From positions 1 through 33,729 of the forward strand of contig JAOAPX010000052.1 of assembly GCA_025463125.1 (NCBI GenBank): DNA of 33,729 nucleotides, given 5' to 3'. Positions within the stretch are counted from its first letter, which is position 1, and every line of letters starts with the position of its first letter. Both the position numbers and the translations under genes were made by a program. The stretch comes from Acidobacteriota bacterium (GTDB taxonomy: Bacteria; Acidobacteriota; Blastocatellia; Pyrinomonadales; Pyrinomonadaceae). Shown piece by piece: positions 16,084 to 22,147 of the stretch. Below the pieces are notes generated by a model. It was not told where the DNA came from and did not search any database. It was given only the letters and a program-made list of their open reading frames with translations.

Positions 16084-19000
16084 TTAAATCTTCAAAAGCA
16101 CGGGTTCGTCCGGCAAATCGTTTATCCATTCATTAAAGCTTGTCTCGAGCTTTTCGCGGCTCGTGTAATCTTCCGGAAGCGGAAAGCTTAAATTCACCAC
16201 GGGATTTGCGGGCAATTCCGAGAAGATTTTTCGCAGAATAAGCAATTCGTCAATGGTCAAAACCGGAAAATTTATATCGCTCTGCAAATTTTGCTTTAAA
16301 CTCAGTGCCGCATTTACAAACCGCACATCGTTTGTTTCCGTGGAATATTTCTCGACGAGCGGCACAATAAAGTCTTTCAGCAACAGCAGATTGCGCCGGT
16401 ATGCGAAGCGACCGCGATTTATCGTCTGCCAGAGCTTTTGCGGCAGTTCTTCCAATTCGTACGCTTTCGCGAGATTGAACGGGCAGGCGCAAAACGGTTG
16501 TGATTTGAGTATTTCCCGCACTTGAAAACGGCAATCGAGCTGTTTTATCTCGCGGCTGATTAGCTGTGCTTCGTTGAGATATTTCCGCTGAAAAATTTGA
16601 AACCCGGAAAGATTTTCAAATTCCCACCATTCACCGCTGCGCGTAATTTCGGCAAGCTTTTCCTGTAAAACGCCCGATTTAACGAGAGCGTCGTGTTTGT
16701 CAGCGTAGTGCGCGGAAAATTCGGTTTTAAAAACGCGCCAGAGATTTTCCATTTCCGTGTTGGCGGATTCGCCCGGGTTTTTGTAGCTTTCCTCGAAAAT
16801 CGAAAGCAACCGTTCGCGATAACGCTCGATTTTTTCATTTTGCGTATTTTCGCAAATAGCCAGGTATGTTTGTATTTCTTCACGCGCCCGGGCGCCTTTT
16901 ATGAAATCTTCAAGAATCACAAGATCGCTCGAACCGTTGAAAAATATTTCCCTGGAATCGGAAAAAGCATCGGCTATGCGGTGCAGGCATTCGTCGAGCG
17001 AAACGGATTCTTCTAAAAGCGCTTTGACCGTTTCGGCAACCGCACCGAATGTCTTCTCGGCGTAATTTGCCTGGTGCCAGATTTTTGTATTAAAAATTTC
17101 ATCGGGCAAATCCCTGAATCGCTTCAAAATCGCTGTGGCGTTCCAATCGTAGAGCCAGTTTTGCAGCTCATCGCGTATCATTTCGCGATCAGCCGGATTG
17201 TCGATTGAATTAAAGCTTTCGGCTCCGGTTAAAATCTTCGCCCAATTCGTTAAATTTTCGTTTGAATAAACGACGCTGCTCGGCTTCGCAACGCCCGTGA
17301 TGTCGTCCCAGATAATCTTCAAATCAAGCGAGCGCCGATTTATGCGATCATCTTTCGATGTCACGAATTCGATTTGTCTTTGCGCGACCAGCGCCGCTAA
17401 AAGCAGATTTTGAGCTTCGCGCATCAATCCGAACGGAGTTTTTTTTAATTCCGCGTAAATCGTTTCGAGCGAAACGGGATTATCGCCGTGATGCCTGACA
17501 AGTTCTAAAACTATCTGCGCGAGCGGCAGATTTTGCAGAGCGTCTTCGGTTTCGGGCAAGTAAAGATTATTGCGCATCGAGACGAGCCCGAGCGGCAGGG
17601 CGAACGTTTCGGCTATGCTCTGAACGCTTTCCAAATTTTGCCGCGCCCCGCTGAAAAGATCGCAGACGAGCGTCGAAACGTCAGGCATTTCCAGCGTTTT
17701 CGTAAAAAACGGGTGAGCCGGATAACGCATCTCGAAAAGCGGTTCGAGCATGATCGTAAAAACTTCGGAAATATTTTGCGCCACGCGCGCTTCTTCCGCG
17801 AAATTAAAATCCAGCCCGTCAATCACAAGTTTCCCGTCCTGGAAAAAAATCCGGTTCCAGATTTTTTCGATAGCGATCGCATGAGCGTGACCGGCGGCGC
17901 GGATTTGTTCGCTGAACTGTTCGCGAAGTTGCTTGTTTGTCAGCAAAACGTGGAAGCGCAGAATTGTTTCCCGCTCTTCGTCGCGCAGCGCGTCGGGCTG
18001 CCAGTAAACCGCTGCCGGCTCGCTTTTATCTTTTTGCGGCTCGAAAGGTCCGTCGAGCCGATTGATAAACACGTGCCAATCAATCGAATCGTGTGCGTCA
18101 GCCGGTTTATTTTCAATTTCCGGATTTTGCCGGTTCCAGGTTATGCGACCGTTTCTCGCGCTTCCGCGCCAATCGACGCGGCATTCCATCGAACTTGCGA
18201 ATTTGGCTTCCGCATCGTCGAGAATCGTCCAGTCGTTAAAACGTTCCTGGGCGATACGACATAAAATCTGCGGAATGACATCGGGCGAAACCGCTCGGCT
18301 GGCTTGAATTAAAGCGTTATTTAGATTTTCCTTGCTTTCGACTTTGAATTTATAACGCGTTTCCTTTTCGCCGGAAACGTTTCTCTGAATGTCCGAAGGG
18401 AAAACGGAAACGATTTTTTCCAGCAGTTCTTCGACGTCGCGGCGGGCTTTTTCGTTTTCGTTTTCATCGAAAATCAGCATCGCCGCGTTGATTTCTCCGG
18501 CTGTCGTGCCGTTTCCGTCAAAAGACAAAAGCAGCAAAGCCTTTAAGACCAGTTTCGCCTGTAAGCGCTGCATAATCGGGATATGTGCGACGACATCGGC
18601 GTTGATTCGGTCATAAACCGAAAACGCTTCATTCAATTCTTCAACTTTTCGCAGGCGAGCTTCGACGCAGTCGAAAACTTCGTCCAATCCGATCAGCGAA
18701 TTTGCCGGGCGACCGAGAATTTTGGTTCCGGCTTCTGAGGCAAAACTCAGAAGCGCGAATTCCGGCACATACAAACGTATATACGGCGCGGTTTCTAAAA
18801 TCGCCGGGTGAAGCGGGTAAAGCGAGGAAAATCTTTGCTCGCTCCAGCGAAAATCCGGCAGCACGGTTCGAAAATAACGATAAATATCGTGCAGAACGGG
18901 CAGCAAATGCCGCTGTTTCGGGAAAATATACGTGTCAACAATGCGGTAGAGATGTTCCTGATCGAGATAATCGATTTTATAGTTTTTGGAAATCGCCGCA

Positions 19001-19635
19001 TTGACGCCGTCGGCTCCGGCGATATCGTCGTCTAAAGCGACGCCGACGAAAATATTCAGGCGGCTTGCCGTTTCGGCAATCTCGCCGAGCATTTCGCCGT
19101 CGTCGCGCAAAACTCTCGACGTTCGCTCGAATGCCGTATCGATCAGCAAAACAAACGGCAAATCACCGCTTTTAGCGGCGGCAAAACCGAGCAGATCGGG
19201 AACGTTATCGTTTAAAGTTTGCGGATCGACTTCAAACGTCAGCGCGACGGCGATTTTCAATTCGTCAAAAAGCGTTTTCTGCAACCCGCGTTTTACAAAA
19301 CTTACCGGGTAACGGCGGCGTTTTAATTGTTCGGAACTGACCGAAACGTGATTGTCGGAAATTTTCGAACGCAGTTCGGGCTGAGAAATAACCGCGCCGA
19401 GAGTGGCGAGAAAATGGCTTTTCCCGACGCCTCTGTAACCGGCTAACGCGAAAGCCGTTCCGTTTTGATTTTGCACGCTTGCCGCGCCGTCCAGCCATTT
19501 GCCCATTAAATCCGCCGTAATATCGGTAAAATAATAATTGGAGAGCGTCAGCGCCGGGTTGGAAATAAAATCTTGTATGATTTCGTAAGATCGTACTTCA
19601 ACGATGTCTTTGACCTTTTCGTGAATGCGTTTCAT
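16084..19635 (-). CDS. Large P-loop ATPase, BrxC/PglY (DUF6079)-like, solitary
   Basis: This 1183-residue cytosolic protein has a clear Walker A motif GYRGVGKSH (66-74) near the N-terminus. A candidate Walker B strand is LPFVLLIDTAFE (159-170), in which Asp is not followed by the usual catalytic Glu. The rest is long and mainly helical, without transmembrane segments, nuclease or methylase motifs. The length, early P-loop in a G-x-R-G-x-G-K-S-H context and all-helical body resemble the BREX ATPases BrxC/PglY (DUF6079 families). That assignment rests on overall likeness, not on an alignment. No pglX, pglZ, brxL or other BREX gene lies in the window; the neighbours are housekeeping genes. It may head the minus-strand group that continues with DUF2520 and Fur. 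Confidence 0.6.
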   Translation of the reverse strand: MKRIHEKVKDIVEVRSYEIIQDFISNPALTLSNYYFTDITADLMGKWLDGAASVQNQNGTAFALAGYRGVGKSHFLATLGAVISQPELRSKISDNHVSVSSEQLKRRRYPVSFVKRGLQKTLFDELKIAVALTFEVDPQTLNDNVPDLLGFAAAKSGDLPFVLLIDTAFERTSRVLRDDGEMLGEIAETASRLNIFVGVALDDDIAGADGVNAAISKNYKIDYLDQEHLYRIVDTYIFPKQRHLLPVLHDIYRYFRTVLPDFRWSEQRFSSLYPLHPAILETAPYIRLYVPEFALLSFASEAGTKILGRPANSLIGLDEVFDCVEARLRKVEELNEAFSVYDRINADVVAHIPIMQRLQAKLVLKALLLLSFDGNGTTAGEINAAMLIFDENENEKARRDVEELLEKIVSVFPSDIQRNVSGEKETRYKFKVESKENLNNALIQASRAVSPDVIPQILCRIAQERFNDWTILDDAEAKFASSMECRVDWRGSARNGRITWNRQNPEIENKPADAHDSIDWHVFINRLDGPFEPQKDKSEPAAVYWQPDALRDEERETILRFHVLLTNKQLREQFSEQIRAAGHAHAIAIEKIWNRIFFQDGKLVIDGLDFNFAEEARVAQNISEVFTIMLEPLFEMRYPAHPFFTKTLEMPDVSTLVCDLFSGARQNLESVQSIAETFALPLGLVSMRNNLYLPETEDALQNLPLAQIVLELVRHHGDNPVSLETIYAELKKTPFGLMREAQNLLLAALVAQRQIEFVTSKDDRINRRSLDLKIIWDDITGVAKPSSVVYSNENLTNWAKILTGAESFNSIDNPADREMIRDELQNWLYDWNATAILKRFRDLPDEIFNTKIWHQANYAEKTFGAVAETVKALLEESVSLDECLHRIADAFSDSREIFFNGSSDLVILEDFIKGARAREEIQTYLAICENTQNEKIERYRERLLSIFEESYKNPGESANTEMENLWRVFKTEFSAHYADKHDALVKSGVLQEKLAEITRSGEWWEFENLSGFQIFQRKYLNEAQLISREIKQLDCRFQVREILKSQPFCACPFNLAKAYELEELPQKLWQTINRGRFAYRRNLLLLKDFIVPLVEKYSTETNDVRFVNAALSLKQNLQSDINFPVLTIDELLILRKIFSELPANPVVNLSFPLPEDYTSREKLETSFNEWINDLPDEPVLLKI

Positions 19636-19930: not shown

Positions 19931-21133
19931 ATGCACAAAGGCTCGTTACGCAAAATATATGCTTTTTTACTTTCTCTCTTTATCGGTTTCGGTGCCGTCG
20001 CATCGCTGCCGCTCAGTGCAGCCGCACAAGTAAAAGAAGATTCAAAAGCTGACAATAAAAAACAAAAAAAAGAATCAAAAAAAGAAACAGCTAAAAAGGA
20101 AGAGAAATCTCAGCCTCAATCCAAGAGCAATGTTCCGAACGCACTTTCCGAAAAAGAGAATCCCGAGCTGATTGGAAAACGCAAAATCAATAACGGATCC
20201 GATAAATTTTTCGGTTGGCTCGGCGGCTCTCAGGAAAAAGAAGTGGCTATCGGCAGACAGCTTTCGGTTGAGGTCGAGCAGCAGGCGAAACTTGTCGAAG
20301 ACCCGATTATCACCGAATATATAAACCGCGTCGGACAAAACGTCGTGCTTCACTCTGACGCTAAAATTCCTTTTACGATTAAGGTAATCGACAGCGACGA
20401 AGTAAACGCTTTTGCGCTTCCGGGCGGATTTTTCTACGTTAATAAAGGTTTGATTCTCGCCGCCGATAACGAAGCCGAGCTGGCTGGCGTTATGGCGCAT
20501 GAAATCGCGCACGTCGCCGCTCGTCACGCAATGGAAAACCAGGGAAAGATGCAGGCGATTCAATACGGTCTGCTTGGTACAATCATTTTCGGCGGCGGCA
20601 TCGCCAGCACGATCGCTCAAAACGCGGGCGGTCTCGCCCAGATGCTCAGCTTCTTTAAATTCTCGCGGGGCGCCGAGGAAGAAGCCGATAAATTAGGCGT
20701 TCAATACCTTTATGCTTCCGGTTACGACCCGACCTCGATGGCGACGATGTTTGAAAAACTCGCTTCGAAAAACAAGAAAAAACCGGGCACGCTCTCTAAG
20801 ATTTTCGCTTCGCACCCGCAGTCGATCGAACGGCGCGATTCGAGTCTGGCGCTGGTTGCCAGATTTAACGAAAAAGAAGAATACATTATCAGCACCTCGG
20901 AGTTTCAACGCGTAAAAGCGCATTTAATGAGGCTTTCCAATGCTAAAGCAGGCGTCACAAGCGATTTGGACGAAGGCGAACCGGGCAAACCGACATTGAA
21001 AAAACGTCAGCCCGCACCTGATTCGACGACGGATACGGGAGATTCGAGCAGTAGCGATTCCAGCTCGACGTCGGCTCCGCCGAAACTCAAAAAGCGCGGC
21101 GAGCCTGAACCCAAGCCTTCGCCTGAACAATAA
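19931..21133 (+). CDS. Secreted M48-family zinc metalloprotease (BepA/YfgC-like)
   Basis: This 400-residue protein has an N-terminal signal peptide (basic start, hydrophobic 11-29, cleavage probably near SAAAQ at 29-33) and a Lys/Glu-rich spacer to about residue 65. The peptidase domain carries the zinc motif HEIAH (190-194), the third ligand region GAEEEADKLG (248-256) and the preceding FALPGGFFYVNKG typical of the M48B/M48C group. Such periplasmic proteases (BepA, LoiP type) degrade or help assemble outer-membrane proteins. The usual C-terminal TPR part of BepA is absent; instead the tail is Ser/Asp/Lys/Pro-rich with two LKKR repeats. GGGAGG seven bases upstream fixes the ATG. It is followed by a strong terminator and appears monocistronic. 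Confidence 0.92.
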   Translation: MHKGSLRKIYAFLLSLFIGFGAVASLPLSAAAQVKEDSKADNKKQKKESKKETAKKEEKSQPQSKSNVPNALSEKENPELIGKRKINNGSDKFFGWLGGSQEKEVAIGRQLSVEVEQQAKLVEDPIITEYINRVGQNVVLHSDAKIPFTIKVIDSDEVNAFALPGGFFYVNKGLILAADNEAELAGVMAHEIAHVAARHAMENQGKMQAIQYGLLGTIIFGGGIASTIAQNAGGLAQMLSFFKFSRGAEEEADKLGVQYLYASGYDPTSMATMFEKLASKNKKKPGTLSKIFASHPQSIERRDSSLALVARFNEKEEYIISTSEFQRVKAHLMRLSNAKAGVTSDLDEGEPGKPTLKKRQPAPDSTTDTGDSSSSDSSSTSAPPKLKKRGEPEPKPSPEQ

Positions 21134-21152: not shown

Positions 21153-21187
21153 AAAAAAAGCGGCTAATTAAAAGAGCCGCTTTTTTT
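21153..21187 (+). terminator. Intrinsic terminator of the M48 gene
   Basis: A 13-bp perfect stem (21153-21165 with 21175-21187, 9-base loop) ends in seven T bases on the plus strand, 20 bases after the stop codon. Confidence 0.9.
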
Positions 21188-21236
21188 ATTTTTTCTCACA
21201 GGCAAAATGTCGTTAATACAAATATACAAAACAAAT

Positions 21237-21270
21237 AAAAAGTCCTGTGAACGGTTCACAGGACTTTTTT
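21237..21270. terminator. Second intrinsic terminator, facing the riboswitch transcript
   Basis: A 15-bp perfect stem (21237-21251 with 21255-21269, loop CGG) has A and T runs on both sides and so works in either direction. The M48 gene already has a terminator 50 bases earlier. This one is best explained as the end of the minus-strand RNA that starts near 21546 and carries the c-di-AMP aptamer. Confidence 0.8.
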
Positions 21271-21305
21271 TCTTTGAAGAGACCGGATGTCTACTTTGAA
21301 TGTTG

Positions 21306-21363
21306 AAAAAGCAGAGCGCGAAGCACACACAAAATCGCGCCTTAGAATGGCAAAACTTCTGCT
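21306..21363 (-). terminator. Possible riboswitch-controlled terminator
   Basis: On the minus strand, AGCAGA (21363-21358) and GCGCGA (21340-21335) together can pair with the continuous TCGCGCTCTGCT (21321-21310), followed by TTTTT. The 5' side has a 17-base bulge, so this is a weaker hairpin. It begins about ten bases after the aptamer, where an expression platform would be. Confidence 0.4.
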
Positions 21364-21372
21364 GTTACTTCT

Positions 21373-21537
21373 TTGCAACACCTACGAGGTTAGCTGACGG
21401 GCTAGGAACGAAGAAGTATCCCCGCGTTTATTTGGCATTAACGCTTCGCCCCGGCTTTACGAAAAATGAAAATAAAATCATAAAGCTTTTGGTTCCCCCG
21501 CGCTGTTTACTGTTGGAAAACAACTTCGGTGATCAAC
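21373..21537 (-). promoter_or_regulatory. c-di-AMP riboswitch (ydaO-yuaA class) without a downstream gene
   Basis: Read on the minus strand, the region has the class hallmarks in order. GCGGGGGAACC is at 21501-21491. A GGGGCGAA segment near 21452-21445 matches the GGGGUGAAUC box. GGGGATACTTCTTCGTTCC lies around 21423-21405. CCGTCAGCTAACCTCGTAGG at 21400-21381 is nearly the family consensus. The closing helix can form between TTGATCACC (21536-21528) and GGTGTTGCAA (21382-21373), with one U-U mismatch and a bulge. Helices GCTTTA/TAAAGC and GCGTT/AACGC supply the internal stems. The class binds cyclic di-AMP and usually turns off cell-wall hydrolase or ion/osmolyte transport genes. No ORF follows on this strand before two terminators. 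The assignment is from recalled consensus. Confidence 0.88.
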
Positions 21538-21552
21538 TTTTCAACAAAATTA

Positions 21553-21582
21553 ATTTTATCATAATTAAATCGCTTGATTCAA
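21553..21582 (-). promoter_or_regulatory. Candidate promoter of the riboswitch RNA
   Basis: On the minus strand, TTGAAT (21582-21577), an 18-base spacer and TAAAAT (21558-21553). The start would lie near 21546, about ten bases before the aptamer closing helix, so the RNA need not depend on readthrough from the DUF420 gene. Confidence 0.55.
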
Positions 21583-21601: not shown

Positions 21602-22147
21602 TCATCTCGGCGGGAATATGTGATAAAGCAAAACATATACGGCAACGCCCGACGCCGAAACGTAGAGCCAGATCGGATAAGCGTATCTGACAATCGATTT
21701 ATGACGCGAGATTCGCCCCGTGACGGCGAAATACATCGCTCTTAAAACCAGCGGCAAAACGACCAGTGATAAAGCGATGTGCGTAAACAAGATGAACAAA
21801 TAAACAAAGCGGATAAAGCCCTCGCCGTTAAACCTGTTAGCCGGGTTTGAAATGTGATAAAGAACGTAGCAAACCAGGAAAACGCCGCCTAAGGCGAAAG
21901 CCGCCGTCATCACCGCTCTGTGCCGAGCCGGTTTGTTTTGTTTGATAAAAATCAACCCGGCAATTAAAAGAACGGTTGTTGCTGTATTGATTAATCCGAT
22001 CGCGTGCGAAAGGCTTTTCGTCCAGCCGCCTAAATCAAGTTTATTTTCTAATGAAAGCAAACCGACGACTAAAATTGGAATGACTACTGATAAGACATTG
22101 ATAAAAACCAGCGAGCCGCGATCTTTTTGATTAACAGAAATATCCAT
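21602..22147 (-). CDS. DUF420 / CtaM-like membrane protein for cytochrome oxidase assembly
   Basis: This 181-residue protein has five hydrophobic helices (about 14-30, 45-68, 77-98, 109-133, 154-177). Conserved His residues lie in TKSLSHAIGL, ARHRAVM, VLYHIS and FTHIALS. This is the DUF420 (YozB/CtaM) pattern. CtaM is needed for maturation of aa3-type cytochrome oxidase in Gram-positive bacteria. The position directly behind coxC (3-base gap) and ctaB supports a role in oxidase biogenesis here. The gene ends 65 bases before the c-di-AMP aptamer on the same strand. Confidence 0.85.
   Translation of the reverse strand: MDISVNQKDRGSLVFINVLSVVIPILVVGLLSLENKLDLGGWTKSLSHAIGLINTATTVLLIAGLIFIKQNKPARHRAVMTAAFALGGVFLVCYVLYHISNPANRFNGEGFIRFVYLFILFTHIALSLVVLPLVLRAMYFAVTGRISRHKSIVRYAYPIWLYVSASGVAVYVLLYHIFPPR

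Follow-up and report, generated by a model that had tools for sequence, protein, structure and literature searches.

Background

Riboswitches nearly always control the gene that lies behind them; only a handful of known cases have an RNA as the thing controlled. Among those that respond to c-di-AMP, a signal linked to potassium and cell-wall balance, binding of the ligand generally favours termination. The closest described systems are EutX of Enterococcus faecalis and Rli55 of Listeria monocytogenes, two riboswitch-containing small RNAs in which a constitutive promoter precedes an adenosylcobalamin riboswitch, a ligand-stabilised terminator and a 3' module sequestering EutV, the ligand giving a short form and its absence a long form (PMC5821096). 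SreA, also from Listeria, is a terminated gene leader containing a SAM riboswitch, and it acts in trans as a small RNA (PMC8383071). As far as we found, the design of a stand-alone, riboswitch-gated RNA is known for vitamin B12 and not for c-di-AMP: a search of the freely accessible papers returned no c-di-AMP riboswitch residing in a stand-alone RNA.

The locus described here lies in a stretch of 33,729 nucleotides from an Acidobacteriota genome of the family Pyrinomonadaceae, hereafter the window. An earlier note had drawn attention on its minus strand to a c-di-AMP aptamer with a promoter and terminators of its own but no gene, and had left four options for it: a c-di-AMP-responsive small RNA, a 3' UTR element of the preceding operon, an antisense RNA, or the relic of a lost gene. 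We compare this locus with its counterparts in related genomes and with the systems above. The existence of a small RNA is strongly supported by this comparison; from its organization we infer a function, and we consider it probable that its product is a non-coding RNA, standing alone and gated by the riboswitch, whose long form, made at low c-di-AMP, acts in trans.

Results and discussion

A c-di-AMP aptamer with no gene behind it

The window contains a single Rfam match above the gathering score, to the c-di-AMP (ydaO-yuaA) riboswitch family RF00379 on the minus strand (21541-21364), which scores 74.2 bits for a gathering score of 38, spans the full model (1-134) and has an E-value of 1.2e-15 for the whole window; a relaxed threshold added only chance matches. 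The complete aptamer announced for this strand is thereby borne out, with bounds extended from 21373-21537 to 21364-21541. Assigned to RF00379 by sequence and structure over the curated score, it is a putative c-di-AMP binder, in a source genome that contains a diadenylate cyclase gene and five RF00379 matches.

The cis control of a downstream gene that goes with RF00379 was not found here. As had been claimed, the minus strand has no gene behind the aptamer, and the next gene, an M48 peptidase gene (PF01435) on the plus strand at 19931-21133, is convergent and ends at 21133. The longest complete frame within the RNA is a GTG frame of 41 codons, which is not conserved. A coding explanation was also rejected among relatives, in which the RNA has a median length of 294 nt: indels interrupt the longest complete frames, whose length varies with a median of about 25 codons, and no ORF is conserved. 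On the other side, the minus strand carries a DUF420 gene (21602-22147, PF04238, E 4e-39), the last of a ctaB-coxC-DUF420 cluster, behind genes for cytochrome oxidase subunit III and a UbiA-type (ctaB-like) protein.

Promoter and 5' end

The proposed promoter, TTGAAT and TAAAAT separated by 18 nt, is present at 21582-21553 (minus strand), where the -10 element additionally has a TG extension (TGATAAAAT). As a pattern it is no better than chance, with 2 found against 1.4 expected; what distinguishes it is its recurrence at the same place in the anchored comparison of relatives, in which the TTG of the -35 element is found in 57 of 61 sequences and the TGnTA of the extended -10 in 54. It is followed by the presumed 5' end of the RNA, GUUGAAAA (21545-21538, minus strand), whose DNA counterpart GTTGAAAA is identical in all 61 anchored sequences. 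The flanks of the same sequences are near random, with identities of 0.29 upstream of the -35 element and 0.26 past the last terminator. Since the loci were gathered with a model of the tail, their selection somewhat favours conservation of the tail; the 5' end and the promoter lie outside that model. A conserved -35/extended -10 pair and an invariant start thus indicate, on sequence grounds, an independent promoter as in EutX and Rli55.

When 62 full-length RNAs are folded to a consensus, GUUGAAAA pairs with UUUUCAAC at 21309-21302, just past the first terminator. No compensatory changes were seen among relatives for this pairing; as both segments are nearly invariant, covariation could not show, and the pairing is a prediction only.

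Conservation and genomic context in the Pyrinomonadaceae

When DUF420 and the aptamer were searched separately in 40 relatives, they occurred together in eight other genera or species, and the nine loci that were read all had a promoter, an aptamer, a tail of about 130 nt and a strong terminator without an ORF. Further loci were sought with R1, a covariance model describing the tail. Of the 119 genomes of the family, it matched 66 at E<=0.001 and 65 at E<=1e-4, with one copy each, and it matched none of the other genomes of the same class that were searched. The aptamer lies immediately 5' of the tail in 65/65. Three weak R1 matches lacking an aptamer (L159-L161, E 1e-4 to 6e-4) were dropped as false. 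The whole arrangement of promoter, 5' GUUGAAAA, aptamer, non-coding tail of about 130 nt and terminator is carried by 65 genomes of 10 genera of the Pyrinomonadaceae, with no match elsewhere in the class. A pattern scan for aptamer plus conserved box (see below) across about 85,000 species genomes retrieved 53 contigs belonging to Acidobacteriota or to MAGs, many of them labelled Pyrinomonadaceae or Blastocatellia, and a nucleotide search in plasmids gave no match.

Comparison among relatives thus establishes, at the level of sequence, an independently promoted, non-coding and structured RNA with a putative c-di-AMP aptamer. With a promoter and terminators of its own, and a sensor joined to a conserved tail that encodes nothing, it resembles a small RNA under signal control, and this first option is well supported by conservation in 65 genomes, its function being a reading of that organization. 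The relic of a lost gene, to which the absence of a following gene lends itself, is by contrast refuted by the comparison, since the 65 genomes of 10 genera have kept promoter, aptamer, tail and terminator in the absence of a gene.

The related genomes also show that no constant gene follows the RNA. An M48 gene is found there only in the window and in one relative of the same genus; most other genomes have an M1 peptidase gene, and further families are found elsewhere. Regulation of the convergent gene by antisense read-through, here of M48, was another of the options. Downstream genes are mostly convergent and antisense riboswitches do exist (PMC9943018), and the RNA is likewise opposed to a convergent gene. 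However, this gene is not conserved, varying by lineage and lying on the same strand in some genomes, and the RNA stops behind a strong terminator about 100 nt short of M48; moreover, the ydaO riboswitches surveyed in antisense position were not above chance (27/2,799, p 0.81; PMC9943018). We regard an antisense role as highly improbable. In three genomes (L118, L127 and L134, in G104, G090 and G092), a gene resembling D-alanine-D-alanine ligase, a label taken from its start sequence only, lies on the same strand about 130 nt past the last terminator, which is either chance or a cell-wall link.

The upstream context is far more stable, with DUF420 preceding the RNA in 61 of the 63 loci that have enough upstream sequence. 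The two exceptions (L157 in G021 and L158 in G054) keep the RNA at two other loci without DUF420; the promoter and GTTGAAAA are retained in G054, and the 5' end has diverged in G021. The near-constant association with DUF420 would fit a c-di-AMP-controlled 3' UTR, in which the RNA would mainly form the end of the ctaB-coxC-DUF420 transcript and adjust how that transcript terminates, how stable it is or how it is processed. It is also favoured by the lack of any hairpin terminator in the window between the DUF420 stop and the promoter of the RNA, so that operon transcripts probably enter the RNA, which may for this reason serve as a 3' UTR besides. Such a role does not hold as the core function, given the two genomes in which the RNA persists away from DUF420 and the dedicated promoter conserved right before the aptamer; nor would a plain 3' UTR need a conserved box past the first terminator. 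As the main explanation, a 3' UTR is in our opinion unlikely. Because the downstream gene varies and two loci lie away from DUF420, a downstream target in cis is unlikely as well, which leaves a target in trans or an additional role where the cox transcript ends.

Organization of the non-coding tail

Pairing and compensatory changes in the tail (all features on the minus strand) were counted on an alignment of 61 tails (A2). The linker behind the aptamer contains GAAGU (21371-21367), which can pair with GCUUC (21324-21320) in a putative antiterminator hairpin (21371-21320) with 94.7% of cells paired in 61 relatives, chiefly by invariant letters. In the relatives, many c-di-AMP riboswitches that are linked to a gene show the GAAG...CUUC/CUUG arrangement as well. 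Overlapping this hairpin is the putative c-di-AMP-gated terminator 1 (21363-21306), which corresponds to the terminator previously called possible: a hairpin with arms 21363-21358/21315-21310 and 21341-21335/21322-21316, followed by a run of five T (21310-21306). In a crude fold made with the GAAG masked, its 3' arm beside the U-run is paired in 35 of 61 relatives, and the U-run has at least 5 T of 8 in 53 of 61. This terminator is weaker than the final one, its form differs between clades, and it is the weakest link of the proposed switch. The U-run is followed by CAAC in 60/61.

Terminator 2 (21269-21237), at the end of the long RNA, fully justifies the strong terminator of the earlier note, with 15 pairs. 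Compensatory changes affect 11 of 13 of its pairs and 4 of 6 in the lower stem of terminator 1, counts that kinship among the sequences inflates; for terminator 2, none of 500 shuffles reached any of the observed measures.

Between the two terminators lie two smaller hairpins and a conserved box. Hairpin H2 (21314-21291) belongs to the read-through form, where AAAGUAG would pair with the 3' arm of terminator 1. Its arms read CTGCTT/AAGCAG in most genera, whereas other genera have TTTGATT/AATCAAA, and own arms pair better than swapped ones (z -5.6, a kind of test that kinship inflates); with crude windows, the swapped-arm test gave nothing for terminator 1, the antiterminator or H3. The last of these, a small AGAC...GUCU hairpin (21292-21280), has 86.7% of cells paired, lacks double changes and has a freely varying loop, UUCG included. 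It overlaps the box GUCUCUUCAAAG (21283-21272), which is GUCUUCUCAAAG in most relatives. In DNA letters, the box GTCTTCTCAAAG has a mean pairwise identity of 0.97, and the exact 12-mer in either form is found in 55/61; the window reads GTCTCTTCAAAG at this place, a two-letter swap seen only there and in the relative of the same genus. None of 25 further c-di-AMP aptamers from the relatives had the box.

Taken together, the antiterminator, H3 and terminator 2 have 92.7% of cells paired in the 61 tails, against 82.5% when shuffled and at most 54.5% when slid, and the alternative set of terminator 1 lower stem, H2 and terminator 2 has 85.7%; in both sets most of the pairing signal comes from terminator 2, and the antiterminator helix is nearly invariant. 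Like EutX and Rli55, the RNA thus possesses a conserved non-coding output module closed by a final terminator. The GAAGU/GCUUC pairing, and the same arrangement at gene-linked copies, suggest that the RNA uses the usual expression platform, in which a non-coding module of about 70 nt seems to take the place of the gene.

A proposed switch between a short and a long RNA

The direction of the switch is one that we infer by analogy, carrying it over from other c-di-AMP riboswitches. With c-di-AMP bound, terminator 1 would be favoured and a short RNA of about 240 nt released. At low c-di-AMP, the GAAG/CUUC antiterminator would form and RNA polymerase read on, adding a 3' module of about 70 nt with H2, H3, the box GUCUUCUCAAAG and terminator 2; the resulting long form of about 310 nt would then work in trans, with an RNA or a protein as its binding partner. 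The RNA of about 310 bases or less, with a c-di-AMP-dependent length, that had been read from the window is plausible.

Alternatively, only the short form, aptamer plus terminator 1, might act once released at high c-di-AMP, the tail being a fail-safe terminator. SreA is such a case for SAM (PMC8383071), and terminator 2, strong and symmetrical, could be used by the convergent gene too. Such a role is quite unlikely in our view, as the box GUCUUCUCAAAG and the covarying H2 both lie past terminator 1, and their conservation greatly exceeds that of the flanks. Under the preferred reading of a long form acting in trans, the box is likely its business end. A perfect complement of the box, the 12-mer CTTTGAGAAGAC, was judged by eye no commoner outside the RNA than a reversed control in the family genomes, so that a base-pairing target, if any, would use a shorter seed; a protein partner and a base-pairing target are equally possible. 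We give about even chances to the more precise proposal of a family-wide small RNA that reports c-di-AMP in trans, the invariant GUCUUCUCAAAG module of its low-c-di-AMP long form binding a regulator or mRNAs.

Comparison with described riboswitch RNAs

The locus shares with EutX and Rli55 its own promoter, an aptamer and a non-coding 3' module with no gene, to which a ligand-stabilised terminator and a similar short/long behaviour would be added by the proposed switch. It is not a member of that family, defined by an adenosylcobalamin aptamer and EutV-binding ANTAR hairpins: the aptamer is RF00379, the putative ligand c-di-AMP instead of adenosylcobalamin, the lineage is in Acidobacteriota, and inspection of the H2 and H3 loops by eye revealed no obvious dual ANTAR hairpin in the 3' module. 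The resemblance to SreA and SreB is that of a riboswitch-derived RNA used as a small RNA (PMC8383071), but SreA comes from a gene leader, whereas here there is no gene and the conserved part comes after the gated terminator. Gene-linked RF00379 riboswitches in the relatives often have a similar linker GAAG and downstream CUUC or CUUG, and differ by the presence of a regulated gene and the absence of the extra conserved non-coding tail.

If the proposed reading is true, this would be the first c-di-AMP riboswitch with an RNA as its sole output, and action in trans would extend the c-di-AMP network beyond the genes that have a riboswitch in cis. Conserved in 65 genomes of a phylum that has been little studied, a c-di-AMP-gated RNA would show the EutX/Rli55 design to reach beyond cobalamin in Firmicutes, and 'orphan' riboswitch matches in genome annotation may be real non-coding RNA genes. 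Being short and single-copy, with an invariant box, the RNA is directly testable.

Other features of the window and of the source genome

The stretch that separates the RNA from the M48 gene contains another symmetrical hairpin (21155-21190), flanked by T-runs, which is apparently the terminator of the M48 gene itself. On the far side of M48, a gene of 1183 aa (16084-19635) shows a partial match to DUF6079 (E 1.3e-9). The source genome also contains a second c-di-AMP aptamer without a gene (L005, G000:C97:12777-12934, minus strand, 48 bits), which sits behind a PAS-GGDEF gene and faces a convergent gene; as its terminator has apparently been lost and the conserved box is missing, it may be a genuine relic.
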